Shown here in pieces: positions 1 through 23,805 of a stretch of 56,618 nt of DNA; the stretch's first letter is position 1, and each line of letters starts with the position of its first letter. The position numbers and the translations under genes were made by a program. Under the pieces are notes generated by a model. It saw only the letters and a program-made list of their open reading frames with translations, had not been told where the DNA came from and did no database searches. The stretch is from positions 1 through 56,618 of IMG/VR virus record IMGVR_UViG_3300043353_000072; one strand, 5' to 3'. The DNA comes from a virus.

Positions 1-127
1 TGTAGCGCCGGTTCTGGCTTTCCGACGCGCGAATCCCCATGACGCTGAAAAGGTCTTTGCCCTCCGGCGTGGGATATACCTGCTTCGAAATGATGCGGGT
101 GATGTCCATGGCGTCGATATGCGTGGC
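1..127. repeat. Left copy of 127-bp terminal direct repeat
   Basis: These bases are identical to the last 127 bases of the window. An exact overlap of 127 bases is what an assembler leaves at the ends of a circular contig built with a 127-base k-mer, so this is probably a closure artefact rather than a physical phage terminus. It lies inside a coding gene, as an arbitrary cut would. Confidence 0.95.
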
Positions 128-511
128 GATGGACGGCGGTTGCCGCACCCATTGGTCTGGTTGCAACTGCGGATCGAAAACCCACCAGTACGGATCGCGC
201 CGGTTGAACACGTTGACGATGGGCTGGTTGGCGACACACCAGCGGAAATTGACCTCCGGCCGCGCGGCCGTCCGCTCCGCGTATTCGAACGTCCCCGGGA
301 GCATGATTTCCTCGTCCCGCATGGAGACGTTGACGGGCAGCCGGCCGGTGGCCCGCGCCGCCATGATGGCCAGTTCCAGCACCACGCCGCTGTCTTTGCC
401 CGCGGAGAACGCGACCACCATGGTGTGGCCGTCCGCGTACAGTGCCGTCAGCCGGTCCAGTGCTTCCTCGAAGACGTCCCGCCCGGTGCGCGCACGGATT
501 TTGACGCTCAT
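1..511 (-). CDS. PAPS-reductase-like PP-loop protein, N-terminal part
   Basis: This is the first 170 codons of a gene of about 388 codons that crosses the circle junction and ends at 55836. The start ATG at 511 overlaps the stop of the gene before it (ATGA). Residues 35-42 read FSAGKDSG, a PP-loop that binds ATP in the PAPS reductase / ATP pyrophosphatase superfamily, followed by a strand-helix pattern and RDEEIMLPGTFEY, which suits sulfonucleotide-reductase-like folds. Similar proteins (DUF3440/IbrA type) in phages and prophages are usually paired with a ParB-domain gene, as here (55826-54879). Chemistry is unproven: the fold can adenylate a substrate or transfer sulfur. The linear ends of the window split it artificially, so it is not a pseudogene. 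Confidence 0.85.
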   Translation of the reverse strand, partial: MSVKIRARTGRDVFEEALDRLTALYADGHTMVVAFSAGKDSGVVLELAIMAARATGRLPVNVSMRDEEIMLPGTFEYAERTAARPEVNFRWCVANQPIVNVFNRRDPYWWVFDPQLQPDQWVRQPPSIATHIDAMDITRIISKQVYPTPEGKDLFSVMGIRASESQNRRY

Positions 512-6196: not shown

Positions 6197-7065
6197 CCCG
6201 TTTCCTCCGGTTGCAGCGCATGGAGTCTTGAGCGGGCATAGTCCCGCGCCGTCTGGTCCCGCTCCGGATCGTCCGCGATGGCCCGCCACATGGCGATCAG
6301 CGTTGCGTTCGGCACGGCGGCCGGCGCCGGCGGGGGTGGCGCGACGGGCACCACGGGCGCCACGGGCTCCGGCTTGAGGGCCGCGCGCATGACCGCCAGC
6401 CGCGGCCGAATGGCGGCGTGGAGGATCATGGCCTCCGGGTCGGCCAGCTTGGCCTCGTAGGCCCGGGCCAGTTCCACCGGCGAGTCCATGGCGTCCTCGA
6501 AAATGGGCAGGGCGTCGGGGCGATGGCGCGCCAGCAGGCTGACGTACGTCTGGATCAGCACATGCCGCATGGGGTGGCCCTGGAAGGTCAACGCCGTCAC
6601 CCGCACCGTCTCGTCGGTGATTTCCGCCGTCCGGTCCGCCCGGACCTCGGTGGCGATCTGGCGCGCCAGCCTGGGCGCGTATGTCTCGATGAGGCTGCGG
6701 GCCAGCTTCTCGCCGGTCCTGCCGCGGTGCTTCTCCCAGTAGCCGGCCCAGGCCTGCTCGGTGACATTCCCGGCCACCACGGTGGACGGCGCGGCCGACG
6801 CGGCGGGTGGCGCGTGCTCCCGCAGCCAGGCGGCGAGGGCGTCCCGCAAGCCGTAGTACGTCGGCCAGACGGTGGACTGGGCCGCCAGCGCCTCCGCCAC
6901 CGCCGGCGCCGTGGCGTCGATGAACAGCGTAACGGGGAACTCCGCCAGCAGGCCGGTCGCTTGCGCCATGATGGTGCCGTCCGAGGGAGGCTCGGCCAGT
7001 TCCATCAGCCGGGCCACCCGGCGCAGCCAGATTTCAATTCCCAGGCTGGCGTCGTCATCCGACAC
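6193..7065 (-). CDS. Unknown protein following the replication initiator
   Basis: A 290-residue mostly helical protein with a Pro/Val/Ala linker (about residues 232-252) and a C-terminal helix that repeats the style of the first helices. It overlaps the lambda-O-like gene by 11 bases. By position it could be a helicase-loading or primosome partner (the lambda O-P arrangement), but no Walker motifs or zinc site are visible, so that role is only a guess from context. Confidence 0.65.
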   Translation of the reverse strand: MSDDDASLGIEIWLRRVARLMELAEPPSDGTIMAQATGLLAEFPVTLFIDATAPAVAEALAAQSTVWPTYYGLRDALAAWLREHAPPAASAAPSTVVAGNVTEQAWAGYWEKHRGRTGEKLARSLIETYAPRLARQIATEVRADRTAEITDETVRVTALTFQGHPMRHVLIQTYVSLLARHRPDALPIFEDAMDSPVELARAYEAKLADPEAMILHAAIRPRLAVMRAALKPEPVAPVVPVAPPPPAPAAVPNATLIAMWRAIADDPERDQTARDYARSRLHALQPEETG

Positions 7066-8221
7066 GGCGCGCCTGGGAGAAGGTGTCCGACACCACGGCG
7101 CGAGCGATCAGCACCTCCCGGCCCATGGGCGAGCCCTCGCACAAGGTCAGCGGGTTGAGCGTCTGCTTGCCGTCCAGCCAGTTGCGATCTTTCAGCCACC
7201 AGTGCGCCGCCTTGGGACGTTTCGGGTCATGCTTCCAGCGGAACAGCCCCAACATTAGGTCCGCGTGGGTGGCGATCCCGCTGGCGATGACGCGGGCGTA
7301 CTCCATTTCGGCCTGGTGCCTGTCCTGGTGGACCGGGTAGGCGAGCCAGAAGCCTTCGAAACTTACCGGATATTTATATTCTTTCCGGTGTGGTGTGGCC
7401 GGCGGTGGGTCCGCGCCCGCACCCGCGGCATTCACACTCCCCACTAGAAGGGATTCTTCACTTCCAGAATCAGACTCACACACACTATCAAGAGTCCGCA
7501 CTGGGTTATTCAATGATTTCAATGGGTCGCGGGCAGTAATTATTTGGGAATTGCCCTCTATCTCCGGACAATTCGAATTAATTGCCGAGGAACTCGAATT
7601 CGGCGCCGGGGAATTACCCGAATCTGTCAATGATTCCAGTGGTGCGGCAATTCCCGTGCAATTATCGGCGGCGGGTAATTCCGGGGAATTAGCCCCTAAT
7701 TCAGATGAACTCCCAGTAATTACGGCGCCGTCGCGACCGCCCGCCATGGGCAGCAGCATGGACGTCTGGCCGAGCGGGCCGCGCCGGCTGCCAGGCTTCG
7801 GTCCGGGCTTGCGCCGGCCCTCCATCCTGCGGCCGTCCGGTGACTGCAGGACCACGGGCATGCCCAGGTCGTCGGACTCGGTGTAGGCGATCATGTCCCC
7901 CGGCATGGGGTGTTGACGCATCGCCCGGCGCGGCCGGTTCCATCGTCGGAAATGGCGGACCGCCCCATACTCCCGGCCGTCCCAGGCGGTGTATCGGCGC
8001 ACGAGGTCCAGCGTCTCCATCTCGTCCAGCATGGGCGTGACGTCGATGCCGTCCCCGGGCATGCACCGCAGGCCGATGGATCTGGGCTTCCACTCGAAAG
8101 CCCCGGCGTCGTCGGTGCAATGGACCTGGATCAGCACCAGCAGCAGGCGCGCGGTGACGGACAGGTAGGAAATCATGTCATCGGTGGTGAACCCCGGATG
8201 CACCATGCGCATGCGGCTCAT
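7055..8221 (-). CDS. Lambda-O-like replication initiator
   Basis: A 388-residue protein with three parts: an N-terminal winged-helix-type region (about 1-110, including FTTDDMISYLSVTARLLLVLIQV and TAWDGREYGAVRHFRRWNRP), a Ser/Asn-rich linker (about 150-260) and a C-terminal domain (EGFWLAYPVHQDRHQAEMEY, then HWWLKDRNW) typical of O-like and DnaD-like phage proteins. The linker DNA is AT-rich with 13 AATT tetranucleotides, a layout like lambda, whose origin lies inside O. ATG 8221 forms ATGA with the small ORF before it; an ATG seven codons upstream is less likely. Confidence 0.65.
   Translation of the reverse strand: MSRMRMVHPGFTTDDMISYLSVTARLLLVLIQVHCTDDAGAFEWKPRSIGLRCMPGDGIDVTPMLDEMETLDLVRRYTAWDGREYGAVRHFRRWNRPRRAMRQHPMPGDMIAYTESDDLGMPVVLQSPDGRRMEGRRKPGPKPGSRRGPLGQTSMLLPMAGGRDGAVITGSSSELGANSPELPAADNCTGIAAPLESLTDSGNSPAPNSSSSAINSNCPEIEGNSQIITARDPLKSLNNPVRTLDSVCESDSGSEESLLVGSVNAAGAGADPPPATPHRKEYKYPVSFEGFWLAYPVHQDRHQAEMEYARVIASGIATHADLMLGLFRWKHDPKRPKAAHWWLKDRNWLDGKQTLNPLTLCEGSPMGREVLIARAVVSDTFSQARRVG
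7538..7721. other. Candidate replication origin inside initiator gene
   Basis: In 184 bp there are 13 AATT tetranucleotides, many within GGGGAATTA or GCAATT contexts (for example at 7549, 7612, 7649, 7677, 7687), in a genome that is otherwise strongly GC-rich. The patch encodes the low-complexity linker of the O-like initiator. In lambda-like phages such an intragenic repeat-rich, easily melted patch is the origin bound by the protein it encodes. The repeats are not perfect iterons, so this is an inference. Confidence 0.5.
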
Positions 8222-8379
8222 GACGATGCTCCCCCGTGCCATGAAACTATGATGGATTGATGTCTTGCAATCATCCGGCGGCGTGCCGAATATGGAACGG
8301 GCAGCCCGGGCAGCGGGTTGTCTGAGTCGCCCCGGACGTTCCTGACGTCCCCGGTGCGGGTGAAAACCGGATGTCGCAT
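8218..8379 (-). CDS. Small ORF coupled to initiator (53 aa)
   Basis: ATG 8379 has AAAGGA eight bases upstream, and its TGA overlaps the start of the O-like gene (ATGA at 8218-8221), so it probably sets translation of the initiator. The peptide starts MRHPVFTRTGDVRNVRG and is basic. Its 3' part (8249-8259) contains the complement of CAATCCATCAT, a word repeated at three promoter islands elsewhere. Confidence 0.45.
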   Translation of the reverse strand: MRHPVFTRTGDVRNVRGDSDNPLPGLPVPYSARRRMIARHQSIIVSWHGGASS

Positions 8380-9744: not shown

Positions 9745-10656
9745 ATGGACGTCACATCGGAACAGGGGGCTGATCCAGCCGTCAAAGTATCGCGCCCGTC
9801 AAGGCCGGCGCACGGGGGGACCTGTCCGGCTGTCAGCCGGAAGCCTGTCACGGGAGGGTCATTGATAAGAGAAACCGCAGTCCGAGACACAGAAAATGAT
9901 ATTGATCTGACGTTCACGACCGACAGCGGGGAGCGGATGGCGGTGCAGGCCAAGCGGTTCCGAACGAAACTAACCGTCCGGCGCACCACGCCGCGCGCCG
10001 ACGCGGATAACCTGGCGCGGACATTCGCCACGCCGGGGGAACGGTTGCGCGCGGTGCGCCTGTTGCGCGGTCTGTTCACCGCGGCCGATGCCGCCCACGC
10101 GCTAAAGGTCCCGGCCGTCACATACCGCGCTCATGAGCGAGGCATCCGAACGCTGGAACCAGAAGTCGCCAGACGGTACGCCAAATTTCTCGATGTGAAC
10201 CCGGATGTAATCCTTTATGGCGATGACGCGGTGGTGTTCCCCGACGCGGTGGGCCGGCGCGTTTTTTACAGCTTCGACGTGGCAGGCGTGGTCAACCGTT
10301 TCGGCCGCGTGGAAGCACTGACCGAAGGCGTGGTCGTGCCGGATGTGAAAGCGGAACGGTTCATGCCGGATGATCGGTTGAGCATGGTGCTGGTGGACGC
10401 GGACGAACTCGCGCCGGCGTATCGACGCGGTGACATGGTGTTCCACGATCCGCTGTTGCGCATTGCCGATCTGCCGGACCTTGACAGATGCGACGCGGTG
10501 GTCCGGGTGAACACGTCGCGCGTGTTCCTGGCGTTCATAACGCGGGCGAAACGCGACTGGATCGTGGAAGTGCCCGGCCAGTCCGAGCCGCGTACCCTGC
10601 CAATATTCGCGGCCGGCCGCGTGCGTTGGGTGCGCCGGGGGATAAGTCCCGGGTGA
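9745..10656 (+). CDS. Phage repressor with HTH and S24-like domain
   Basis: An XRE-type HTH (GERLRAVRLLRGLFTAADAAHAL, then VPAVTYRAHERG) lies near codons 96-140 of this reading. The C-terminal half has the S24/LexA-like strand order (LVDADELAPAYRRGDMVFHDP). The Ser-Met of the autocleavage site is absent, and no Lys stands where the catalytic Lys is expected, so RecA-triggered self-cleavage is doubtful. It faces the leftward early operon, as CI does. The start is uncertain: ATG 9745 has AAGGGG, TTG 9862 has GGGAGG, and ATG 9937 would leave a normal divergent control region. AT-rich bases at 9860-9915 may be the operator. Confidence 0.65.
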   Translation: MDVTSEQGADPAVKVSRPSRPAHGGTCPAVSRKPVTGGSLIRETAVRDTENDIDLTFTTDSGERMAVQAKRFRTKLTVRRTTPRADADNLARTFATPGERLRAVRLLRGLFTAADAAHALKVPAVTYRAHERGIRTLEPEVARRYAKFLDVNPDVILYGDDAVVFPDAVGRRVFYSFDVAGVVNRFGRVEALTEGVVVPDVKAERFMPDDRLSMVLVDADELAPAYRRGDMVFHDPLLRIADLPDLDRCDAVVRVNTSRVFLAFITRAKRDWIVEVPGQSEPRTLPIFAAGRVRWVRRGISPG

Positions 10657-14989: not shown

Positions 14990-15301
14990 TTATGTTAATT
15001 CGCGGCCGTCCGGGGTCATGGGCGGGTACTCCGGCCGGCCGGCCATCGGGACCTCGGCCGCCGCCTCCAAGGCCAGCAAATTCGCCGGGGTCAGCTTCAA
15101 CGCCACCCAGTCAGCGGGCGGCTGGGTGGCCCAGCCCTCGTCAACCCCGGTCACGAAGCCGCGGGCGATCAGCCGCCGCGCCGCCTTCGCCCAGCGTGGC
15201 GCGGGAAGATAGGCCCGGCCCTGTTGCGCCGCCGCCGCGGTGTCCTGGATCAGCCGCAGTTCCGTGATCGACAGGTCAAGGATGCACAGATGGAACCTCA
15301 T
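14990..15301 (-). CDS. Unknown protein, last gene of P1 operon
   Basis: A 103-residue protein with a small winged-helix look (ITELRLIQDTAAAAQQG, RWAKAARRLIARGFVTGVDE, WVALKLTPANLLALEAA). Possibly DNA-binding, but no family was recognised. It ends the leftward operon that begins at the promoter element near 17701-17759. Confidence 0.65.
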   Translation of the reverse strand: MRFHLCILDLSITELRLIQDTAAAAQQGRAYLPAPRWAKAARRLIARGFVTGVDEGWATQPPADWVALKLTPANLLALEAAAEVPMAGRPEYPPMTPDGRELT

Positions 15302-15304
15302 GGC

Positions 15305-15562
15305 TCACTCCCGGGTCGGCGGCACGTAGGACGCCGGCGGCCGGTCCGGTTCCACCCCCGACTCCCGCGCCGCCACGTCATGCGCGAAACACATGAGCCG
15401 CGCGGTATCTTCCTCCGTCACCATGACGACCCGCGTCAGGTTTGGCAGTTCCCGGATGACGGCCGCGCGCACGGCGGCGGCGTTGCCGGCGGTGCTGACA
15501 TCATGGCGGATCAGCACCAGGTCGTCGGTCTCGATCAGCACCATCACGGCGATGGATGCCAT
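15305..15562 (-). CDS. Unknown protein (85 aa)
   Basis: Alternating hydrophobic strands (SIAVMVLIETDDLVLIRHD, LTRVVMVTEEDTARLMCFAHDV) suggest a small alpha/beta fold. It lies 3 bases upstream of the next gene in a leftward operon. No family recognised. Confidence 0.65.
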   Translation of the reverse strand: MASIAVMVLIETDDLVLIRHDVSTAGNAAAVRAAVIRELPNLTRVVMVTEEDTARLMCFAHDVAARESGVEPDRPPASYVPPTRE

Positions 15563-15574
15563 GGTCCCCTCCCC

Positions 15575-15733
15575 TCACAGATACCCGGCCACCAGCAGGA
15601 TCAGCAGCACCAGCAGCGCGAGGCCCAGCCCGCCGGACGGGTAATAACCCCAGCCGGTGGAGTAGGGCCAGGCGGGCAGCGCCGCCACCACGACCAGGAT
15701 CAGCAAGAGCAGCAGCGCGAATCGTTGGGTCAT
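15575..15733 (-). CDS. DUF3309-type small membrane peptide (52 aa)
   Basis: I chose ATG 15733 because AAAGGAG precedes it. The peptide MTQRFALLLLLILVVVAAL has one hydrophobic segment, then PAWPYSTGWGYYPSGGLG and a second hydrophobic segment LALLVLLILLVAGYL. The GWGYYPSGGLG turn is the signature of DUF3309, a host-type peptide common in proteobacterial chromosomes and rare in phages. A membrane role is certain by sequence; the function is unknown. Confidence 0.8.
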   Translation of the reverse strand: MTQRFALLLLLILVVVAALPAWPYSTGWGYYPSGGLGLALLVLLILLVAGYL

Positions 15734-15747
15734 CGACGCGTCTCCTT

Positions 15748-16071
15748 TCAGTTGGGTCGGGACGTCTTGTGGATGTCGCCCCATAGCAGGTTCATCGCGA
15801 GGTTGCCGGCCTGCAGTCGCGCCAGTTCCGGCGCCGCCTCCGCCATGGTGGCGAATCGGGTGCGCCGCACCTCGTAGCGCCAGGTGGCGCGGTTGGCGTT
15901 ACAGATGGCGCACCACGGGTTGATGGCGCCCGACGCCAGCATGCCCACGACGTCCCGGCGCAACGGCTGGCGGACCTCCCGCTCCGCCTCCGCCTCGGTT
16001 TCCACCTCGCCAGTCGCGGCCACGATGCAATGGCGGGACGGGCACAGGCACTGAGCGATCCAGAGGGCCAT
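15748..16071 (-). CDS. Cysteine-containing unknown protein (107 aa)
   Basis: Two cysteine pairs (CLCPSRHC near the start, WCAICNAN near residue 55) could bind a metal. The C-terminal half is helical (RTRFATMAEAAPELARLQAG). It belongs to the leftward small-gene operon. No family recognised. Confidence 0.6.
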   Translation of the reverse strand: MALWIAQCLCPSRHCIVAATGEVETEAEAEREVRQPLRRDVVGMLASGAINPWCAICNANRATWRYEVRRTRFATMAEAAPELARLQAGNLAMNLLWGDIHKTSRPN

Positions 16072-16073
16072 GG

Positions 16074-16349
16074 TCAGTGTCCTATCTTCTCGCGGTCAAT
16101 GACGTTGCGCGGTCCGCCGCCGGCCTCCGCCTCCCAGCGCGCCGCCTGCTCGTCCATGCGTCGGGCGGCCTCCGCGCGGGTGATGAATGTGCCGGTGCCA
16201 GCCGCGGCCATTGGCACGGGCGGCCAGTCCATGGCGGCCTCGGCCCGCAGGTCCCGGGCCAGTTCGCGGCAGGTGCGGCCCATCTGGGCGGGGTTGAGCG
16301 GGTACTTGGTCCGCTGGGCGCCACGGGAAGAGTCCCGGCCCGGGCTCAC
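16074..16349 (-). CDS. Unknown helical protein (91 aa)
   Basis: GTG 16349 overlaps the upstream stop as GTGA, which fixes the start; longer readings are antisense artefacts. Charged helices (AQMGRTCRELARDLRAEAAM, TRAEAARRMDEQAARWEAEA). No family recognised. Confidence 0.6.
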   Translation of the reverse strand: MSPGRDSSRGAQRTKYPLNPAQMGRTCRELARDLRAEAAMDWPPVPMAAAGTGTFITRAEAARRMDEQAARWEAEAGGGPRNVIDREKIGH

Positions 16350-16543
16350 AGGTCCAGGCTCCGGGCCGCCTCGCGCCGCAGCCGGTCCCGGCAGTCCGGG
16401 CATACGGTGGCGCCGTGGGAACTGAACCAGTGCTCGCACGCCCGGCAGTAGCGTTTCTCGGTGCCGGGCGGCGACCACCAGTTGGGCATGCGTTTGGGAT
16501 CGTCAGGCGGGTCAACATCATGGCGTCGACCCTGGCGGGTCAT
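16346..16543 (-). CDS. Zinc-ribbon protein (65 aa)
   Basis: YCRACEHWFSSHGATVCPDC gives a CxxC-x13-CxxC zinc ribbon in the middle of a short protein, flanked by a basic helix (RDRLRREAARSL). Overlaps both neighbours by four bases. Possible nucleic-acid binding; no family named. Confidence 0.65.
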   Translation of the reverse strand: MTRQGRRHDVDPPDDPKRMPNWWSPPGTEKRYCRACEHWFSSHGATVCPDCRDRLRREAARSLDL

Positions 16544-16788
16544 CCGGGCCGGGTGCCCCGTTCACGGTCCCGCTCCGCCAGCGCGCGTTCGTTCCAGCCC
16601 AAGGTCCAGGACAGCCGGGCGGCCGTGAACGTCAGCCCCTCCCCGTGCGGGTCCTGGTGCGGGTTCTGGTGGAAGCCGAGGCCCTCCCGGTGCGCCAGGA
16701 TGCCGTCCGCGAAGGCGTCCAGGTCCAGGTCCCGGAGGGTGGCGCCGCCCCGCAGCAGGCGCTCATAGCGCGGGTCGGCGGTGCTCAT
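16540..16788 (-). CDS. Unknown protein (82 aa)
   Basis: Contains a His/Gln-rich stretch (FHQNPHQDPHGEG) and a helix (LGWNERALAERDRERG). It overlaps its neighbours by four bases in the P1 operon. No family recognised. Confidence 0.65.
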   Translation of the reverse strand: MSTADPRYERLLRGGATLRDLDLDAFADGILAHREGLGFHQNPHQDPHGEGLTFTAARLSWTLGWNERALAERDRERGTRPG

Positions 16789-16916
16789 ATCAGGCCCAGC
16801 TTGTGCAGCAGCGCGGCGACGATGAACATCCCGATCAGCAGCAGCGGACCGCCCGGCCTGGGCCGGCGGCGCCGGTTGACCACCCGGTAGATCATCATCC
16901 GTCCGAAGGCGTTCAT
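16785..16916 (-). CDS. Single-pass membrane peptide (43 aa)
   Basis: ATG 16916 overlaps the previous stop (ATGA). A basic N-terminus (YRVVNRRRRPRPGG) precedes one hydrophobic segment (PLLLIGMFIVAALLHKLGLI), so an N-in orientation is expected. Too short to name; it lies in an operon of accessory genes, which argues against a holin. Confidence 0.55.
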   Translation of the reverse strand: MNAFGRMMIYRVVNRRRRPRPGGPLLLIGMFIVAALLHKLGLI

Positions 16917-17230
16917 GCCACGGGCTCCGGGACGCGGGCCCGAACCCGCCTGGGCGCGGGCTCCGGTTCTGGCTCCGGTCGGAACCGCGCGTCCCCGGGA
17001 CCCATCACGCCGGTTTCGTGCATGAGGTTCAGCATGCGTTCCAGCCAGAACGGCGCCGGGCTGGTGCCGTTGAGCCAGTGCCGCATGGTCCGCTCGGGCA
17101 CGCCCACCCAGGTGGCGAACGTCGCCTGGGTGAAGGCCAGCGCCACCAGGGCGTCCCGCATGTCCGCGTTGCTCATGAAGCGCCGAGGGGCGCGGACTCC
17201 CGTCCGCGCCTTGGTTGGTTGTTTCGTCAT
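16913..17230 (-). CDS. HTH regulator, YdaS/XRE-like (105 aa)
   Basis: Residues about 20-72 form an HTH: NADMRDALVALAFTQATFAT, then WVGVPERTMRHWLNGTSPAP, typical of small XRE-like or YdaS-like proteins. The C-terminus is a Pro/Glu/Arg tail. Possible regulator of the small-gene operons. Confidence 0.7.
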   Translation of the reverse strand: MTKQPTKARTGVRAPRRFMSNADMRDALVALAFTQATFATWVGVPERTMRHWLNGTSPAPFWLERMLNLMHETGVMGPGDARFRPEPEPEPAPRRVRARVPEPVA

Positions 17231-17472
17231 GGCCGCACGGACTCCGACAGGTCCAGCCGCCGCTCGATCCGGTCCAGCCGCGCCTCGATCCGATCCAGCC
17301 GCCGGGACTGGTTGGCGAAGTCACCGTGCAGGCCGGCGACCTGGGCTTCCAGGGAGGTCATGCGGGTTTTGAGGTCGGCCATGTCCTCCCGCAGCCGGTC
17401 CAGGCCGGTGTGGACCCGCGCGAACTGTTCGCGCAGGTAATCCAGCACCTCGGCGTTCGGGTTGTCGCTCAC
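17227..17472 (-). CDS. Coiled-coil protein (81 aa)
   Basis: GTG 17472 overlaps the upstream stop as GTGA. Heptads run through most of the protein (LREDMADLKTRMTSLEAQVA, then SRRLDRIEARLDRIERRLDL). This is a widespread alphaproteobacterial and phage coiled-coil type with no known function. Confidence 0.7.
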   Translation of the reverse strand: MSDNPNAEVLDYLREQFARVHTGLDRLREDMADLKTRMTSLEAQVAGLHGDFANQSRRLDRIEARLDRIERRLDLSESVRP

Positions 17473-17681
17473 TGGGCGGCCTCCCGCACCTGCTGGAACG
17501 TCCACACGCGGCCCGTGCCGCGGTCGTCCACCTTGTAGGCGGTGGTGGCGTCCAGGAAGCCCAGGACCGGGCTCGGGATCGACGTCAGGCCCAGCACCCG
17601 GATGCCGCGCCGGGTCAGCACCCGCATGGCGGTGTCGCCAAAGTGGCGGACCGCGATTTGTTGGGAAACGGAAGCACTCAT
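17469..17681 (-). CDS. Unknown protein, first gene of P1 operon (70 aa)
   Basis: I chose ATG 17681, which has GGAG nine bases upstream; a TTG start five codons earlier is less likely. It lies 19 bases after the conserved leader of promoter element P1. Small alpha/beta look (RHFGDTAMRVLTRRGIRVLG). No family recognised. Confidence 0.65.
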   Translation of the reverse strand: MSASVSQQIAVRHFGDTAMRVLTRRGIRVLGLTSIPSPVLGFLDATTAYKVDDRGTGRVWTFQQVREAAQ

Positions 17682-17700
17682 CGAAGGAAACTCCAACCGG

Positions 17701-17759
17701 CCCGGGCTGTATTGCCCGCGGCACGCCCTCTAATTAGGCCACCGTTGCCGCTCGGTCAA
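17701..17759 (-). promoter_or_regulatory. Repeated promoter-leader element P1
   Basis: On the minus strand: -35 TTGACC (17754-17759), 17-base spacer, -10 TAATTA (17731-17736), then the leader GCCGCGGGCAAT plus ACAGCCCGGG (17701-17722), which can fold CGGGC with GCCCG. The same arrangement recurs at P2, P3 and P4. Drives the operon 17681-14990. Confidence 0.75.
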
Positions 17760-17776
17760 TCCATTTCCTGCTACTA

Positions 17777-17808
17777 TTCCATCACTCCATCAATCCATCA
17801 TTCCATCA
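17777..17808. repeat. Four tandem 8-bp repeats (NTCCATCA) upstream of P1
   Basis: Four consecutive units, each ending TCCATCA, lie just upstream of the P1 -35 box. Tandem 7-8 bp direct repeats are typical binding sites of ribbon-helix-helix repressors, and an RHH protein is encoded at 23596. The included word CAATCCATCAT (17791-17801) recurs upstream of P3, P4 and the initiator gene. Confidence 0.6.
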
Positions 17809-17813
17809 AACTG

Positions 17814-18092
17814 TCATTCATCCCTGGCCCGGTTGAGGATGCGGGACTGCCGGATGTCGTGCGTCATGACCCAGTATTTCCAGCCGTCCCCGAGGCGCAG
17901 ATAGCGGTAGGTGGTCCGCCCGTATGGCGCGTCATCGCCCCGCTCCCGGATGGCGGTGAACAGGGCCGCGTAGACGTTCTCGTTGTGCGGACCGCGCACG
18001 ATGTAAAAGTGCGGGTTCTCCGGCATGGTCTTGGCGAACACCCAGTTGAGCGGCTCAACGGCCAGCCGCAGTTCCTCGTTGGTCATCGGCAT
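17814..18092 (-). CDS. Unknown protein (92 aa)
   Basis: ATG 18092 has GGAG seven bases upstream. It contains HFYIVRGPHNENVYAALFTA and TTYRYLRLGDGWKYWVMTHD, a small alpha/beta protein of a type found in plasmids and phages of proteobacteria. Last gene of the P2 operon. Function unknown. Confidence 0.7.
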   Translation of the reverse strand: MPMTNEELRLAVEPLNWVFAKTMPENPHFYIVRGPHNENVYAALFTAIRERGDDAPYGRTTYRYLRLGDGWKYWVMTHDIRQSRILNRARDE

Positions 18093-18163
18093 GGACAATC
18101 TCCTGAAAGCACGAGCGGCACGCCGGTATAGCGTGCCGTCCGCGTGGGGTCAGCGATTGCGGG

Positions 18164-18346
18164 TCAGTCGTGCTGGCGGACCTTTATGGTGTCCCCGATG
18201 GACAGGTGGCCGGCCTCGCGGATCATTTCCAGCGCGGCCTCCGTGATGCCGGCCTCCAGGTCATCGCCCTCGTGGCCGCGAACCAGCCGGTGGTCCAGTT
18301 CGCCGCCCTCGTTGCAGAAGGATACTCTCGCCCAGGTGGTGCTCAT
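18164..18346 (-). CDS. Unknown acidic protein (60 aa)
   Basis: Short protein with a strand (TWARVSFCNEGGELDHRLV), then a helix (GITEAALEMIREAG) and a closing strand (IGDTIKVRQHD). Part of the P2 operon. No family recognised. Confidence 0.6.
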   Translation of the reverse strand: MSTTWARVSFCNEGGELDHRLVRGHEGDDLEAGITEAALEMIREAGHLSIGDTIKVRQHD

Positions 18347-18373
18347 GGTGGTGCTCCGTGTTGATGGTGGTGG

Positions 18374-18715
18374 TCAGTGCAGCAGGTCCCCGAGGCCCAG
18401 GGCCACGAAAGCGGCCTTGAGATCCTCGGAGAAGCCGGGATCAATCCCCGGCCGGCGGCCGTCCCGTTCCTCATACCAGGCGAAGGTTTCCCGGACGTAG
18501 GCCACGAACTCCGCGTCGGTGTCGCAGCGGATCAGCGTGGTGTCCCCCTCCGTGTAGGAGAACCAGATGCGCTTGGTCGGGTTGATCCAGTTGCCGAAGT
18601 ATTCGGCGTCCTGCCGGCTGTCGAACTGGGCGAAGCCGTTGCCGGTGGAGCACGCCCCAAAGTCGTAGAGGTAGCGGCTGGCCGGCGCGAACTCGTCGGT
18701 GCGGTGCACGGCCAT
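18374..18715 (-). CDS. Unknown protein (113 aa)
   Basis: ATG 18715 starts two bases after the upstream stop; a longer frame start lacks support. Aromatic-rich (YLYDFGACSTGNGFAQFDS, YFGNWINPTKRIWFSYTEGD), then an acidic C-terminal helix. Part of the P2 operon. No family recognised. Confidence 0.65.
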   Translation of the reverse strand: MAVHRTDEFAPASRYLYDFGACSTGNGFAQFDSRQDAEYFGNWINPTKRIWFSYTEGDTTLIRCDTDAEFVAYVRETFAWYEERDGRRPGIDPGFSEDLKAAFVALGLGDLLH

Positions 18716-18717
18716 GG

Positions 18718-18948
18718 TCAGGCCCTCACCTTGTCGGCGCCGATGATGGCGCACATGGAATAGGACCCGTGCGGTTTGAATTGCTCCACGCCCTCGTAGA
18801 CGTACAGGCGCCGGAGGCGACTGGCGCCGTTTACCTGGATCGTCACCGTCTGTTCGGTGCGGCCCAGGATTTCGAAGGCGTGGATGGAGTCGTGGTCCAC
18901 GATGGAGCGGGTCCAGTAGGTCTTGCCGACTTCGAATTTGGTGGTCAT
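18718..18948 (-). CDS. Conserved unknown protein, MTTKFEVGKTY family (76 aa)
   Basis: Starts MTTKFEVGKTYWTRSIVDHD and ends VEQFKPHGSYSMCAIIGADK, a conserved pattern seen in plasmids, phages and genomes of many proteobacteria, without known function. All-beta in appearance. I chose ATG 18948; a GTG at 18960 that overlaps the previous stop is the alternative. Confidence 0.75.
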   Translation of the reverse strand: MTTKFEVGKTYWTRSIVDHDSIHAFEILGRTEQTVTIQVNGASRLRRLYVYEGVEQFKPHGSYSMCAIIGADKVRA

Positions 18949-18956
18949 GGCGGGCC

Positions 18957-19169
18957 TCACGAGTTGTCGTTGCGGGACATGGTGCGGGCGTACGCCTCGC
19001 TGACCGGTTCGGTGAGCCGGACCTGGGCCGGCCGGACGGAGAAGATCACGGCGATGGGACCGTGCACCGCGCGGACCTTGGCGGCCGGGTCCCCGTCGTC
19101 GGAGATAAGCATGCGGCCCGGGCCGCCCTCCGCCGCGTAGCCGCGCGGCCAGAATTCAACGATCCTCAT
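18957..19169 (-). CDS. Unknown protein (70 aa)
   Basis: ATG 19169 lies 4 bases after the upstream stop. Strand-rich (MRIVEFWPRGYAAEGG, AVIFSVRPAQVRLTEP). Second gene of the P2 operon. No family recognised. Confidence 0.6.
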   Translation of the reverse strand: MRIVEFWPRGYAAEGGPGRMLISDDGDPAAKVRAVHGPIAVIFSVRPAQVRLTEPVSEAYARTMSRNDNS

Positions 19170-19173
19170 GGGG

Positions 19174-19353
19174 TCAGCCCTCCGCCGAAAGCGCGGTGTA
19201 GAACCGCTCGCCGCGGGCCATGCCGGCCGCCGCGCGGTCAATCGCCGCCAGCCGCGCCTTGTAGGTTTCCTCGGTCATTTCCGAGGTCATGTAGCGCCGG
19301 TCCAGCGCGTCCGTCTGGCGCGCGGTCCATGCTTCGATTTGTTGTTCAGTCAT
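19174..19353 (-). CDS. Small helical protein, first gene of P2 operon (59 aa)
   Basis: ATG 19353 lies 19 bases after the P2 leader. The protein, MTEQQIEAWTARQTDALDRR and onward, is helical and charged, with YMTSEMTEETYKARLAAID in the middle. Too short for many gene finders but supported by promoter and spacing. Function unknown. Confidence 0.65.
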   Translation of the reverse strand: MTEQQIEAWTARQTDALDRRYMTSEMTEETYKARLAAIDRAAAGMARGERFYTALSAEG

Positions 19354-19372
19354 GTGGGTTCGGCCTTGTCTC

Positions 19373-19433
19373 GCCCGGGCTGCATTGCCCGCGGCGCGGC
19401 TCAGTAATTAGGCCACCATTGCCGCATCGTCAA
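19373..19433 (-). promoter_or_regulatory. Repeated promoter-leader element P2
   Basis: Minus strand: -35 TTGACG (19428-19433), 17-base spacer, -10 TAATTA (19405-19410), then the conserved leader at 19373-19395. The spacer GCGGCAATGGTGGCC is nearly that of P1. It drives 19353-17814. Confidence 0.75.
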
Positions 19434-19442
19434 CGGGAAATG

Positions 19443-19482
19443 TGATGCCAACGTATGATTACATCAACATACGTTGGCATCA
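19443..19482. promoter_or_regulatory. 15-bp perfect inverted repeat upstream of P2
   Basis: 19443-19457 (TGATGCCAACGTATG) pairs perfectly with 19468-19482, with a 10-base loop. The right arm extends into ATACGTTGGCATCATGATG (19469-19487), a 19-base word found again exactly at 22942-22960, at the start of parA. It is a candidate operator or partition site. A second, shorter palindrome (GGCAT at 19476 with ATGCC at 19490) overlaps it. Confidence 0.7.
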
Positions 19483-19495
19483 TGATGTCATGCCG

Positions 19496-20449
19496 TCAGC
19501 CCACCTGATAGTGGCTCCGTTTGGCCAGGAAGTCGGCCCGCGCCTCCGGCAGCACGTTGACCAGGGTGTCGCGGATGAACGACCGGGCGCCGTCCGCGTA
19601 GTGGCGGAAATGACCGCGCCGGATATGCGGGACCGGGCTCGCGTGGTGCCCGTCCCCGGCGGCCTGCCGAGGCCCGCCGTGGCGCGCCCGCAGGGCCGTG
19701 ACGTACGGCCCGGAGTCGATGGTGGTGTAGGGCGGGATCGTCGGCTTGCCGGAGCGCCTCCGCGCCCGGTTCAGCTTGTCCGAGGCGGCTACCACGCGCC
19801 GGTCCAGCCCGTTGGTGTTCAGCAGCATGAGGGCCGCCATCAGCGGGTCCAGGACGTTGCCGGCGGCGGCGTTCTCCGGCGACCCGCCGTTGTTGATTAC
19901 CTCCATGCCGCGCTCGTAGCGCCAGGCCGAGGGCGCCACCGAACAGTTGTACTTCGCGTCGAACGGCATGCCCGGGTCCGGCCCGAACAGCAGCGCGCGG
20001 TCCCCGATGGTCAGCAGGCGCCGGCCGCCGATGCTGGCGGGTTGCAGTTCCACCACCTCGCAGTCATCGCCCACCGGATTGACCAGATAGGCGGCCGTCT
20101 CGTTGAGATCCTCGCCGGGCCGCAGGCCTCCCCAGGTGTGCACGAACAGCCAAGGGTCGCGGAACGGCTGCGGCAGGGCGCCGGCGTAGAACATCTTGGC
20201 GCCACGGTTGCCGCAGTCCATCAGCAGGTCGTTGTCCAGCCGGCCCAGGTCGAAGACGCGGCCCGCCTGGACCGCCTCCACGGCCATCTCACAGGTGACT
20301 TCGACCTCATGCTGGGTGGGCATGTGCTGCGGCGGTCCGGCCTCCGGGAAGGCCTGCGTCACCAGGAAGTCCAGCACCGCCTCGCGGATGCCCGGGACGG
20401 TGGCGTGCCACGGCAGGAAGTCATCGACGGGGTGAGCATAAGTGTTCAT
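19496..20449 (-). CDS. AcrVA2-like protein
   Basis: A 317-residue protein. The C-terminal region reads VPHIRRGHFRHY followed by an exposed strand ending RDTLVN, matching the PHIRRGHWxxY motif near the C-terminus of AcrVA2, the Cas12a anti-CRISPR that lowers Cas12a mRNA. AcrVA2-like proteins are widespread in phages and plasmids, and most have not been tested. The N-terminal domain (LPWHATVPGIREAVLDFL and after) is less clear. It is the last gene of the P3 operon. I chose ATG 20449 (overlaps previous stop). Confident about the motif, not about activity. Confidence 0.55.
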   Translation of the reverse strand: MNTYAHPVDDFLPWHATVPGIREAVLDFLVTQAFPEAGPPQHMPTQHEVEVTCEMAVEAVQAGRVFDLGRLDNDLLMDCGNRGAKMFYAGALPQPFRDPWLFVHTWGGLRPGEDLNETAAYLVNPVGDDCEVVELQPASIGGRRLLTIGDRALLFGPDPGMPFDAKYNCSVAPSAWRYERGMEVINNGGSPENAAAGNVLDPLMAALMLLNTNGLDRRVVAASDKLNRARRRSGKPTIPPYTTIDSGPYVTALRARHGGPRQAAGDGHHASPVPHIRRGHFRHYADGARSFIRDTLVNVLPEARADFLAKRSHYQVG

Positions 20450-20682
20450 GGCCGGCCTCCGTGACAGGTGCTGTAGGTGTTGCCGAACGGGTCGGTGCGC
20501 GAGGTGCACGAGGTGCGCGGACCGCCACGCTCCCCGAATGTCTCATGGGTATATCCCAGCGGATCGGTCCGCTCGGACCGGGCCAGGGACCGCTCGGGCG
20601 GCGCGCGGCGGACGGGCTCCGCCACGCAGGCGCCGGCCGCCAGCCCGAAGGCGGCGGCCAGCAGCGTGAGGCGCGGGCTCAC
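20446..20682 (-). CDS. Small lipoprotein (78 aa)
   Basis: GTG 20682 overlaps the upstream stop as GTGA. The signal (SPRLTLLAAAFGLAAGAC) ends in a lipobox with Cys about residue 19. The mature part holds two related units (RTDPLGYTHETFGERGG and RTDPFGNTYSTCHGG). Exported and lipid-anchored by sequence. A surface-exclusion or moron role is possible but unproven. Confidence 0.65.
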   Translation of the reverse strand: MSPRLTLLAAAFGLAAGACVAEPVRRAPPERSLARSERTDPLGYTHETFGERGGPRTSCTSRTDPFGNTYSTCHGGRP

Positions 20683-20975
20683 GGGCGCCCCGTCAGGGAC
20701 GGATGGCGCACGCAGCGGTCGACCAGGGCTTGCCACCGATAGCTGCCAATCGGGCAGCCGCGGGTTTCCAGTTCCCGCGCGATGATGCGGTAGGGCCGGC
20801 CGGCCAGGGCCTCGGCCCGACGCCGGGCCAGGCGCATGCGCTGGACCTCACCGCGCGACACCTGGGTATGGCACTCGCTCGGCGCGTGCCACGCATCGAC
20901 GTCCGCGTGAAGGTCTATCTCGACGGCCTCGCATTTCGCCAGGATGGTGGCCACCCGGCCCAGGTGGCGGATCAT
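20679..20975 (-). CDS. Unknown protein (98 aa)
   Basis: Begins with a hydrophobic helix (GRVATILAKCEAVEIDLHAD), then a basic helical part (RMRLARRRAEALAGRPYRII). It overlaps both neighbours by four bases. Possibly nucleic-acid binding from its basic charge. No family recognised. Confidence 0.65.
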   Translation of the reverse strand: MIRHLGRVATILAKCEAVEIDLHADVDAWHAPSECHTQVSRGEVQRMRLARRRAEALAGRPYRIIARELETRGCPIGSYRWQALVDRCVRHPSLTGRP

Positions 20976-21196
20976 CGGCCGGCCTCCGCCACGTGATACA
21001 GGTCGCCGTCCTGGCGCAACTGTCCGGCGCGCACGAGCCCGCCCATGATTTGCTGGTACTGGTGGAGGGTGCAGCCCTGGCCCATCAGGGCGGCGTAAAT
21101 CACGCCACCCGGCGCCCCGGTCGGGCCAGCGGCCCGGACCGAGTCAATGATGGCGGATGCGACCATGCGCAGCAGGCGGATTTGTTCCTGGGTCAT
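20972..21196 (-). CDS. Small winged-helix-like protein (74 aa)
   Basis: Pattern of helix (EQIRLLRMVASAIIDSVRAA), GAPGGVIYAALMGQG, helix (YQQIMGGLVRAGQLRQ), then a short wing (DGDLYHV), typical of small winged-helix DNA-binding proteins of phages. Possible regulator; target unknown. Confidence 0.65.
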   Translation of the reverse strand: MTQEQIRLLRMVASAIIDSVRAAGPTGAPGGVIYAALMGQGCTLHQYQQIMGGLVRAGQLRQDGDLYHVAEAGR

Positions 21197-21531
21197 CGGC
21201 CGCCTCCGGTCGTCACGCGAAGCTGGAAGGTGCCCACGGCGTTCTCCCCGGTCAGCCGGGTCCAGCCGCAGCGGTCGCAGTAGAAGGAGTCGCCGCCGTC
21301 GATGGCCACCACGTCCGACATGGACATGGAAGCGAAGCGGAAGCCCTCCGGATGGTCCACGTTGAAGACGCGGAACAGTTCTTCCAGGGCGGCCTCAGCC
21401 GGCATGTCCGGCAGGTCGTCGGCCCAGATCATTTCGTAACGGCTGTAGTCGACGTGGCCAATGGCATCCAGCGAACGGTAGTTGAATTCACGCTGGAACT
21501 CGTCGCGAAGGCGCAGGAAACGGTATCTCAT
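21193..21531 (-). CDS. YodL-domain-like protein, first gene of P3 operon (112 aa)
   Basis: The central region FNVDHPEGFRFASMSMSDVV resembles the YodL domain pattern (P-x-FRG-x-SLSVSDVV), followed by a cysteine pair (FYCDRCGW). ATG 21531 is 15 bases after the P3 leader. YodL-type domains are common in plasmid and phage DNA-processing proteins, with unclear function. Confidence 0.6.
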   Translation of the reverse strand: MRYRFLRLRDEFQREFNYRSLDAIGHVDYSRYEMIWADDLPDMPAEAALEELFRVFNVDHPEGFRFASMSMSDVVAIDGGDSFYCDRCGWTRLTGENAVGTFQLRVTTGGGR

Positions 21532-21546
21532 GGTGTGGTCCTCTGT

Positions 21547-21605
21547 GCCCGGGCTGCATTGCCCGCGGCTGAACGTATTTAGGCCAAGGTTGCCGGTAGT
21601 GTCAA
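21547..21605 (-). promoter_or_regulatory. Repeated promoter-leader element P3
   Basis: Minus strand: -35 TTGACA (21600-21605), 18-base spacer, -10 TAAATA (21576-21581), then the conserved leader (21547-21569). The spacer ends CCGGCAACCTTGGCC, identical to P4. It drives 21531-19496. Confidence 0.75.
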
Positions 21606-21636
21606 TCCATCAATCCATCATGACAGCATGATGTCA
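21602..21636. promoter_or_regulatory. Repeat cluster upstream of P3
   Basis: Two direct TCAATCCA-type units run into CAATCCATCAT (21611-21621) and then TGACAGCATGATGTCA (21621-21636), an imperfect palindrome. The cluster overlaps the outer edge of the P3 -35 box, where a repressor would compete with RNA polymerase. Confidence 0.6.
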
Positions 21637-21650
21637 CGCGCGCCGGGCAC

Positions 21651-21678
21651 AAAAAAACGGCGCCCGCGAGAGCGCCGT
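21651..21678 (-). terminator. Intrinsic terminator of the P4 operon
   Basis: Read on the minus strand, a perfect 7-bp GC-rich stem (ACGGCGC with GCGCCGT, 8-base loop) is followed at once by a run of seven T. It lies 58 bases after the stop of the last P4-operon gene (21737) and ahead of the P3 control region, so each operon is insulated. Confidence 0.85.
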
Positions 21679-21736
21679 ATTGAGGGGGGTTTTGAAGTCA
21701 TCGGATACCGCCTGTACATGGCGGCGGGTCGATTCT

Positions 21737-21922
21737 CTAGTCTTCGTCGAGGGGTTCGTCCATTTCATAATGCGGGTCAGTGAGGACCTCCGGGCGGAAG
21801 CCCCTGGTGCGCTCCCGCTCGCATCGATGGCAGGCGAAGGTCAGGAAGATGCCGCGGGCGTCATGGACCGCCCGCGGGTAGTGGCCGCTCCCGCAGCGGC
21901 AGGGTTCGTTGACGATGCTCAT
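21737..21922 (-). CDS. Zinc-ribbon protein (61 aa)
   Basis: CRCGSGHYPRAVHDARGIFL followed by FACHRCERERTRGF forms a CxC-x20-CxxC zinc ribbon of a small family common in alphaproteobacterial phages and plasmids. The acidic tail ends DEPLDED. I chose ATG 21922, which overlaps the upstream stop. Function unknown. Confidence 0.7.
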   Translation of the reverse strand: MSIVNEPCRCGSGHYPRAVHDARGIFLTFACHRCERERTRGFRPEVLTDPHYEMDEPLDED

Positions 21923-22119
21923 GGCAGGCGCTCCGATCCGCGCACGTCGCAACCGGGCAGGTGGCCCGGGTCGATCAGCCATTGCACCGCGTCCCGCCAG
22001 TCGCGGATGACGCCCGGGCTGTTGCCCTCCGTCCTGGCACGAGCGCGGGCGGCCTTGATGACCGCCCGCTTGTCGAAGCACCGCACGTCGACGGTGATGG
22101 TCACGCAATCATCCGTCAT
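21919..22119 (-). CDS. Unknown protein (66 aa)
   Basis: Begins MTDDCVTITVDVRCFDKRAV, a strand-helix start, then a basic helix (IKAARARARTEG) and WRDAVQWLIDPG. Middle gene of the P4 operon. No family recognised. Confidence 0.65.
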   Translation of the reverse strand: MTDDCVTITVDVRCFDKRAVIKAARARARTEGNSPGVIRDWRDAVQWLIDPGHLPGCDVRGSERLP

Positions 22120-22121
22120 GG

Positions 22122-22808
22122 TCAGCCCGCCGCATGCTGGACGGCCGCCACGCCGGCCGGCGTGAGGGACAGCTTCGACTTGGTCTTGGTCGCCATGGCG
22201 GTGACGATCAGGCCGCGCCGTTGCAGGGCGTTCAGCACGCCGGGGACCTGGCGCGGCGGCAGGGCGTGCGGCGTCGGGCTGTCATTGAGCGTCGGGTAGA
22301 GCACCCAGGCGTCCGCTTGGCCGGCGCAGTCGGGGTGGTCATACACGGCCACCAGCACCCGCAGGTGCGCGTCCGGCAGCAGCCCGGGCTCGGCCGCCGG
22401 CGCGGGCTTCGGCGCCACCACGGGAGCGGGGACGGGCTCCGCCACGGGAGCGGCCGGCGCCAGGCCGGTCAGCGCCTCGCAATGGGCCAGCACGGCGGCC
22501 GGGCGGAGGCCCAGCGGCGTCACGCCGGGCAGGGCAGGGACCTGCGGCGTGGGCTTCTTGCGGAGGAATGGCACCAGCACGTCATCCTCCGAGGCGCCGT
22601 TCAGCACGTCCCGGACCTGGGAGAGGAACACCAGGCCGCCCTGGGTGGGGGAGGCCTCGTTCGCGGCGGTGGCGCGGAGGCTGAAACCGCCCTCCACGGG
22701 TGCGACCTCCCAGGCGTCCGCGCGGAGTTCGCCGGCGGAAACGGCCTTCAAGAAATCGCGCTTGCAGTTGGATTTCTGCGTGTAAACCTTGGAAACGTTC
22801 ATGGTCAT
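22122..22808 (-). CDS. Unknown protein, first gene of P4 operon (228 aa)
   Basis: Two folded ends are joined by a Pro/Ala/Val linker (about residues 115-145). The N-terminal part starts MNVSKVYTQKSNCKRDF. The C-terminal part looks like a winged helix (HLRVLVAVYDHPDCAG, PPRQVPGVLNALQRRGLIVT, SKLSLTPAGVAAVQ). It could be a transcription regulator. An alternative start is two codons in. Confidence 0.65.
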   Translation of the reverse strand: MTMNVSKVYTQKSNCKRDFLKAVSAGELRADAWEVAPVEGGFSLRATAANEASPTQGGLVFLSQVRDVLNGASEDDVLVPFLRKKPTPQVPALPGVTPLGLRPAAVLAHCEALTGLAPAAPVAEPVPAPVVAPKPAPAAEPGLLPDAHLRVLVAVYDHPDCAGQADAWVLYPTLNDSPTPHALPPRQVPGVLNALQRRGLIVTAMATKTKSKLSLTPAGVAAVQHAAG

Positions 22809-22818
22809 GGTCCTGGCT

Positions 22819-22879
22819 GCCCGGGCTTCATTGCCCGCGGCTGGATGTGTATTTAGGCCAAGGTTGCCGGTGAGTATAG
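22819..22879 (-). promoter_or_regulatory. Repeated promoter-leader element P4
   Basis: Minus strand: -10 TAAATA (22850-22855), spacer CCGGCAACCTTGGCC as in P3, and the conserved leader (22819-22841, one mismatch). The -35 is degenerate (CTATAC, 22874-22879), so this copy may be weak or need an activator. It drives 22808-21737. Confidence 0.65.
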
Positions 22880-22921
22880 ACCCAATCGTTACGCCTTGAG
22901 CGCATGCCCGGCATGTGATTG

Positions 22922-22960
22922 CAATCCATCATGACATGATGATACGTTGGCATCATGATG
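22922..22960. promoter_or_regulatory. Repeat cluster at the parA start
   Basis: Contains CAATCCATCAT (22922-22932), CATGACATGATG, and the 19-base word ATACGTTGGCATCATGATG (22942-22960) shared exactly with the P2 inverted repeat. It overlaps the parA start codon, so a protein bound here could autoregulate parA and also affect P4. It may double as a partition site. Confidence 0.65.
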
Positions 22961-23596
22961 CTAACCCTGGTCATGGCAAGTCAGAAAGGCGGCGTGGGCA
23001 AGACCATGCTCAGTTGCGCGCTCGCGGTGGAGGCGAGCCAGCGCGGGTTCTCGCGCGTGGCCCTGCTGGACCTGGACGAACAGAACGCCTCCACCCGCTG
23101 GGCCATGAAGCGCGAGGCCGCCGGCATGCCCGGCGTCACGATGGTGTCCGGCCGGCGGAGCGGCCACCTTCGCGCCACCGTCACGGGACTGGGCCGGGAC
23201 GGGTTCGACCTGCTGGTGATCGACACGCCGCCGGCGGTGTCCCGCGTGGCGGCCGACGCCATGGCGGTCGCGGACCTGGTGGTGGTCCCCGTCCAGCCGT
23301 CGCCCGATGACGTGGAAGCGGTGGGCGCGACCATCGAACTCGCGGAGCGGTCCGGCGCGCGGACGGTGTTCGTGCTGAACCGCGTCAAGCCCAGGGTCGC
23401 GCTGACCCGGGAGTCCATTATCGCCTTGTCCCAGGGCGGCCCGGTGTCCCCGGTTATGATCTGGGACCGGGTGGTGCACGCCGAGGCCCGCATAACCGGC
23501 CGGGTGGCCGGTGAGCTGCGCCCCGGTGGCAAGGCCGCCGAGGAAATGGCCGCTCTGTGGCTGTATTTGTCCGATCAGTTCAAAAGGAAACACTGA
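22955..23596 (+). CDS. parA: ParA-type partition ATPase
   Basis: A 213-residue short ParA without an N-terminal HTH. The deviant Walker A KGGVGKT lies at residues 11-17, with LLDLDEQNAST (A' region) and LLVIDTPP (Walker B). Small ParA proteins of this kind work with a ribbon-helix-helix centromere-binding partner, which follows immediately (TGATG overlap at 23594-23598). It moves and separates copies of a low-copy replicon, so it implies an episomal prophage. Repeats around the start codon may be operator and centromere. Confidence 0.9.
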   Translation: MMLTLVMASQKGGVGKTMLSCALAVEASQRGFSRVALLDLDEQNASTRWAMKREAAGMPGVTMVSGRRSGHLRATVTGLGRDGFDLLVIDTPPAVSRVAADAMAVADLVVVPVQPSPDDVEAVGATIELAERSGARTVFVLNRVKPRVALTRESIIALSQGGPVSPVMIWDRVVHAEARITGRVAGELRPGGKAAEEMAALWLYLSDQFKRKH

Positions 23597-23805
23597 TGCC
23601 CGAGGCCGCGCGTTTCAGCCCCGTGAATGATACCGCGACGGAACGCGCGGCCAGGGAACCGGATCGCGCGAAGCTGGTGGTGACCACCGTCCGCCTGCCG
23701 CGCGAACTCCACAAGTGGCTGGCCATCCACGCGGCGACCGAGAACACCTCCATCCAGCAGATCATGCTGGACCTGCTGGGCGAGTACCGGCGCGACCACT
23801 CATAG
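23596..23805 (+). CDS. Ribbon-helix-helix partition/operator-binding protein (69 aa)
   Basis: The disordered N-terminus (about 25 residues) is followed by LVVTTVRLPRELHKWLAIHA and TSIQQIMLDLLGEY, the strand and two helices of a CopG/ParG-like RHH fold. Gene order and overlap with parA make it the likely partition partner. RHH proteins bind short direct repeats, which are present upstream of P1, P3, P4 and parA. Whether it binds them is an inference. Confidence 0.8.
   Translation: MPEAARFSPVNDTATERAAREPDRAKLVVTTVRLPRELHKWLAIHAATENTSIQQIMLDLLGEYRRDHS

Follow-up and report, generated by a model that had tools for sequence, protein, structure and literature searches.

Four near-identical promoter-leader elements, P1 to P4, precede four operons of small genes in the viral genome IMGVR_UViG_3300043353_000072, whose 56,618 bases form the window analyzed here, and they raise the question of what control these operons share and in which state of the virus they are expressed. 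The record has a 127-bp direct repeat at its ends, in keeping with a complete, circular genome of about 56.5 kb, and one open reading frame (ORF) spans the end join (window 1-511 and 55836-56618), so that the record closes into a circle even though automated annotation lists no end repeats for it. This circular map fits a plasmid prophage; a permuted virion genome would look identical. The structural genes encode a gpA-type terminase, a lambda-type portal, capsid protein E, and Baseplate J, with the nearest terminases occurring in viral contigs (≤69% identity), alphaproteobacterial genomes (≤60%), and Rhodobacter phages (56%). The genome also carries a CI-like repressor gene (9937-10656) and a replication-initiator-like gene (7055-8221, minus strand), the latter assigned from partial PHROG matches. 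On the plus strand, the ORF of a 213-aa ParF-like ParA ATPase (22955..23596) overlaps that of a 69-aa ribbon-helix-helix (RHH) protein (23596..23805), a candidate ParG-like centromere-binding protein and regulator. ParA matches the ParF structure (4dzz, E 3e-11) and had no relatives among viral contigs. The RHH protein matched no PDB entry by sequence, ParG included, and the best PDB match of its single-sequence model was ParG, at a weak E of 0.15. No tyrosine or serine recombinase or integrase domain was detected in the genome. Given the circular genome, the ParA/RHH pair, the CI-like repressor, the initiator-like gene, and no detected integrase, the virus is probably a temperate phage of an alphaproteobacterium that is kept as a plasmid; structural genes together with partition and replication-type genes, and no integrase, constitute the gene content of a phage-plasmid.

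The four elements occupy gaps between operons, all on the minus strand: P1 at 17700-17760, P2 at 19373-19433, P3 at 21547-21607, and P4 at 22819-22868. In each, block A (GGCAANNNTGGCCTAAWTA) is followed after 6-9 nt by block B (GCCGCGGGCAATNNAGCCCGGGC). Both the layout of block A, GGCAA-N3-TGGCC-TAATTA/TAAATA, and that of block B, GCCGCGGGCAAT-NN-AGCCCGGGC, are exact in every copy, in agreement with a sequence-only reading that had described four near-identical elements with a GGCAA...TGGCC spacer. That reading would have been refuted by random occurrence of the motif elsewhere at a similar score. Scanning of the genome revealed no extra copy of block A at ≤3 mismatches or of block B at ≤4, and neither full block occurred in 100 first-order Markov simulations of the genome. 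Beyond this genome, the combined A+B pattern was absent from GTDB genomes, and searches of viral contigs with block A, block B, and A+B patterns returned unrelated sites only; divergent versions would escape both pattern searches. A fuzzy search of 1.34 Mb of loci likewise found no A+B pair. Identity among the four copies is 0.87 for block A and 0.96 for block B, versus 0.24-0.40 for the segments around and between them. Because the segments between the blocks differ in length among the copies and are of near-random identity, the blocks look as if they had been kept by selection rather than by recent copying.

The core had been read as sigma-70-like, with TTGAC 17-18 bases from TAATTA or TAAATA, and three elements have boxes so spaced. 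P1 (core at 17731..17759) has TTGACC, a spacer with GGCAACGGTGGCC, and TAATTA; P2 (19405..19433) has TTGACG, GGCAATGGTGGCC, and TAATTA; and P3 (21576..21605) has TTGACA, GGCAACCTTGGCC, and TAAATA, all on the minus strand with the -35 TTGAC 17-18 bp from TAAWTA. The combination TTGAC-spacer-TAAWTA is found three times in the genome, always at P1-P3, compared with 0.01 expected. P4 departs from this pattern in that its block A (GGCAACCTTGGCCTAAATA; 22850..22868, minus strand) is accompanied by no TTGAC, and CTATAC/TATACT stands at the corresponding place. We infer promoter activity from these boxes; measured against a sigma-70-type promoter, with a TTGACA-like -35 and a TATAAT-like -10 at 16-19 bp spacing, the -10 TAAWTA deviates from TANNNT, and a consensus promoter scanner listed none of the four. 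Within block A, a 13-bp imperfect dyad, GGCMA-N3-TKGCC, adjoins the -10 and lies between it and the -35. A sigma-54 promoter was rejected as a reading of this sequence, since its GG and GC are 8 bp apart, not 10.

Block B occupies 17700..17722 in P1, 19373..19395 in P2, 21547..21569 in P3, and 22819..22841 in P4 (minus strand throughout). It follows the -10 at 6-9 nt and leaves 10-19 nt to the start codon; from this position, it would form the 5' end of the mRNA. The leader had been put at 22-23 bases able to form a hairpin: the length is 23 nt in all four elements, and the predicted hairpin is the same in each, its 8-bp stem bearing a bulged G and ending in a six-base loop, with a folding energy of -14.7 kcal/mol and z-scores of -2.3 to -3.1 relative to shuffled sequences. 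The stem is invariant across the four copies and hence offers no covariation support for an RNA structure, and a comparison with Rfam gave no match. Block B was rejected as an intrinsic terminator, with three copies having no T-run and P1 giving only a weak overlapping call. The 11-mer GCAGCCCGGGC, which makes up the 3' half of the P2 and P3 copies of block B, is also seen at window 8301-8311 on the plus strand, upstream of the replication-initiator-like gene.

ORF calling places three genes behind P4, five behind P3, six behind P2, and 10-11 behind P1, consistent with the 3-11 small genes per operon reported earlier; all four operons are on the minus strand. The P1 operon (14990..17681) encodes a helix-turn-helix (HTH) protein (16913-17230), a coiled coil protein (17227-17472), and a DUF3309 protein (15575-15784) among its small ORFs. 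The six small ORFs of the P2 operon (17814..19353) have no assigned function. The P3 operon (19496..21531) begins with a YodL-like gene (21193-21531) and ends with a 317-aa ORF of no assigned function, and the P4 operon (21737..22808), whose first ORF is of 228 aa, gave no family match. A strong intrinsic terminator that sets the P4 operon apart from P3 (21657..21678, minus strand) was overlooked in the sequence-only reading. Padloc and Pfam provided no function for most of these small genes. The DNA of the region has no relatives among phages, and its proteins have none in viral contigs or phages except for the P2-operon protein at 18374-18718; a search of the region's proteins against 385 alphaproteobacteria, run with no positive control, gave no matches. 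Relatives of the 18374-18718 protein occur in the marine phage Nohivirus S31C1 (41.7%), on plasmid II of Magnetospirillum XM-1 (55.8%), and on Cupriavidus plasmids, and the A+B element is absent from the neighborhoods of the Nohivirus and Magnetospirillum relatives. On the Magnetospirillum plasmid (L109: 6554, 7254, 9468, 10260), a GC-rich hairpin, CGCGTCCTCT...GGGAGGACGCG, is repeated between the genes of a small-gene array. As the element is unique to the four sites, lies on the same strand, and in every case stands 10-19 nt ahead of the first gene of an operon, the proposed regulon of four accessory operons is well supported by the sequence.

A further feature, also overlooked earlier, is a set of AT-rich 8-bp repeats (TGATGGAT) at P1, P3, and P4/parA that recur upstream of the replication-initiator-like gene. 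At P1, the upstream site (17757..17824, minus strand) contains four contiguous 8-bp TGATGGAN units (17778-17809), an array found only there, and ATGGATTG overlapping the -35. The P3 site (21602..21636, minus strand) has TGATGGATTGATGGATTG overlapping the -35, plus TGACATCATG. Between P4 and parA, a repeat site with ATGGATTG and CATCATGATGCCAACGTAT (22913..22960) extends to the parA start codon, and TGATGGATTGATG lies upstream of the initiator-like gene (8250..8262, plus strand). P2 has no ATGGATTG repeat, only a second type of site that it has in common with P4/parA: its upstream site (19440..19490), a perfect 15-bp inverted repeat (19443-19457/19468-19482), shares 79% identity with the P4/parA intergenic site over 48 bp. 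Of the six occurrences of ATGGATTG in the 56.5 kb, P1 and P3 have two each, and the remaining two lie, one each, between P4 and parA and upstream of the initiator-like gene. The p-values of the ATGGATTG enrichment test are optimistic, since the five regions had been selected beforehand; the placement of all six occurrences is independent of these values. The shared repeats suggest one control circuit for P1-P4, parA, and the initiator-like gene.

We propose that P1-P4 are co-regulated sigma-70-type promoters of a probable plasmid phage, each combining an upstream repeat, a spacer dyad, and a leader hairpin, and that the accessory regulon follows the maintenance state of the plasmid prophage, an account to which we give about an even chance of being right. 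RHH proteins are known to act on repeats over several promoters, and so the AT-rich repeat site would most likely be bound by the RHH protein whose ORF overlaps that of the ParF-like ParA; this protein may serve both as centromere-binding protein and as regulator. Because the repeat overlaps the -35 at P1 and P3, occupancy should mainly repress: by covering the -35, the RHH protein would restrain P1 and P3, and analogous restraint may be expected at P2, P4, parA, and the initiator-like gene. We infer both this repression and the identity of the regulator from the arrangement of sites. The GGCMA-N3-TKGCC dyad next to the -10 would form the second module, where another regulator may bind the spacer. 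The third would be the near-invariant 23-nt hairpin at the 5' terminus, directly upstream of the Shine-Dalgarno region, which most likely protects the message and/or places the start of every operon in a uniform context for translation initiation; alternatively, it may bind a protein or modify the polymerase.

This scheme has precedents. In pSM19035, the RHH ParB (omega) binds parS heptads that overlap the copS, delta, and omega promoters (PMC9499535). As in that delta/omega system, the present genome has a ParA with a small RHH protein (an assignment that is weak by sequence) and short iterated repeats over several promoters, that of the parA homologue among them, here also upstream of the initiator-like gene. 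In contrast to the 7-bp WATCACW of pSM19035, the candidate sites are 8-bp TGATGGAN-type units, and accessory operons are included, with an extra spacer dyad and leader hairpin. The pairing of a 213-aa ParF-like ParA with an adjoining 69-aa RHH ORF, together with ATGGATTG repeats at par and other promoters, fits a type Ib ParA/RHH partition system with a pSM19035-like multi-promoter centromere. In TP228, ParG binds parH and represses parFG (PMC7308502); our ParA matches ParF by sequence and the RHH model has ParG as its best, weak match, whereas here the repeats lie at several distant operons and the RHH protein shows no sequence similarity to ParG. By analogy with pSM19035, the accessory operons are probably tied by their repeats to the partition and replication circuit. 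Expression in the plasmid-prophage state, which resembles the lysogen expression suggested earlier, is plausible in view of the repeats shared with parA and the initiator-like gene; alternatively, the P1-P4 operons may be expressed early in lytic growth. In a bolder version that we consider unlikely, the centromere-like repeats would couple the four accessory operons, the initiator, and the partition genes, the partition protein would read plasmid dose and set accessory expression, and the 5' hairpin would mark the mRNAs for one phage factor. No relatives carrying the element, which might have shown co-conservation, turned up in the collections searched.

The repeats could instead be the sites of a different DNA-binding protein, the CI-like repressor (9937-10656) or the HTH protein (16913-17230). 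A related explanation places control at the block A dyad, bound by either of these two proteins, and regards the operons as an ordinary immunity or early regulon and the upstream repeats as unrelated partition sites. All four elements have the dyad between -35 and -10, and both candidate regulators are encoded in the genome. However, the promoter of the CI-like gene itself has no nearby copy of block A, where autoregulation would be expected, and the overlap of the upstream repeats with the -35 of P1 and P3 argues against unrelated partition sites, so that we hold this explanation to be rather unlikely. The shared upstream repeats also suggest regulation and thereby speak against constitutive promoters furnished with a 5' stabilizing hairpin and no dedicated regulator, their similarity stemming from gene-start cassettes spread by recombination. 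Repeated gene-start cassettes are known in phages: Cluster K mycobacteriophages carry 11-19 copies of a 13-bp asymmetric sequence (SAS/ESAS) proposed for translation initiation, about half of the SAS with an inverted repeat just upstream (PMC3203893). Like P1-P4, these are repeated phage-specific sequences at the starts of non-structural genes (translation starts in the case of SAS), but the present element exists in four copies that combine promoter boxes with a 23-nt leader hairpin, and identity with SAS was rejected, as its GGGATAGGAGCCC differs from the P1-P4 leader sequence. The near-random identity between and around the blocks and the differing spacer lengths argue against recent cassette copying, and we judge the constitutive model quite improbable.

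The leader hairpin might instead be the main regulator and secure read-through of long operons, either as a put-like antitermination RNA that modifies RNA polymerase or as the target of a phage RNA-binding protein. Such a role would suit a near-invariant 23-nt hairpin that bears a bulged G and lies where each transcript is predicted to begin, and HK022 putL, which is located just downstream of PL (PMC9378689), provides a precedent for structured RNA at the beginning of phage transcripts. The put RNA is about 70 nt long with two stem-loops (PMC9378689), compared with a single 23-nt hairpin with no Rfam match here, and we rejected identity with put on these grounds. Moreover, the P4 operon has only three genes. 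We therefore judge the hairpin very unlikely to be the main regulator, and favor the repeat-based control of P1-P4 described above.

Repeated phage-specific start elements and RHH-controlled multi-promoter regulons are known. The combination of a promoter, a spacer dyad, a near-invariant leader hairpin, and partition-type repeats on phage accessory operons was not found in the viral contigs and GTDB genomes searched by pattern, and is new in that range. If the proposed control is correct, the many tiny uncharacterized genes of phage-plasmids can belong to the maintenance circuit rather than being loose cargo, and a defined promoter set with a candidate regulator is available. The near-invariant 5' hairpin is a compact, testable RNA element. 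Certain viral contigs (L072, L077/L081, and L087) carry a repeated promoter-leader of their own, in 1-3 copies per contig, which consists of a -10-like box, the hairpin GTCRGC-GGGCAAW-GCTGGC, GGAG, and a start codon, and is unrelated to the P1-P4 element beyond a short match.
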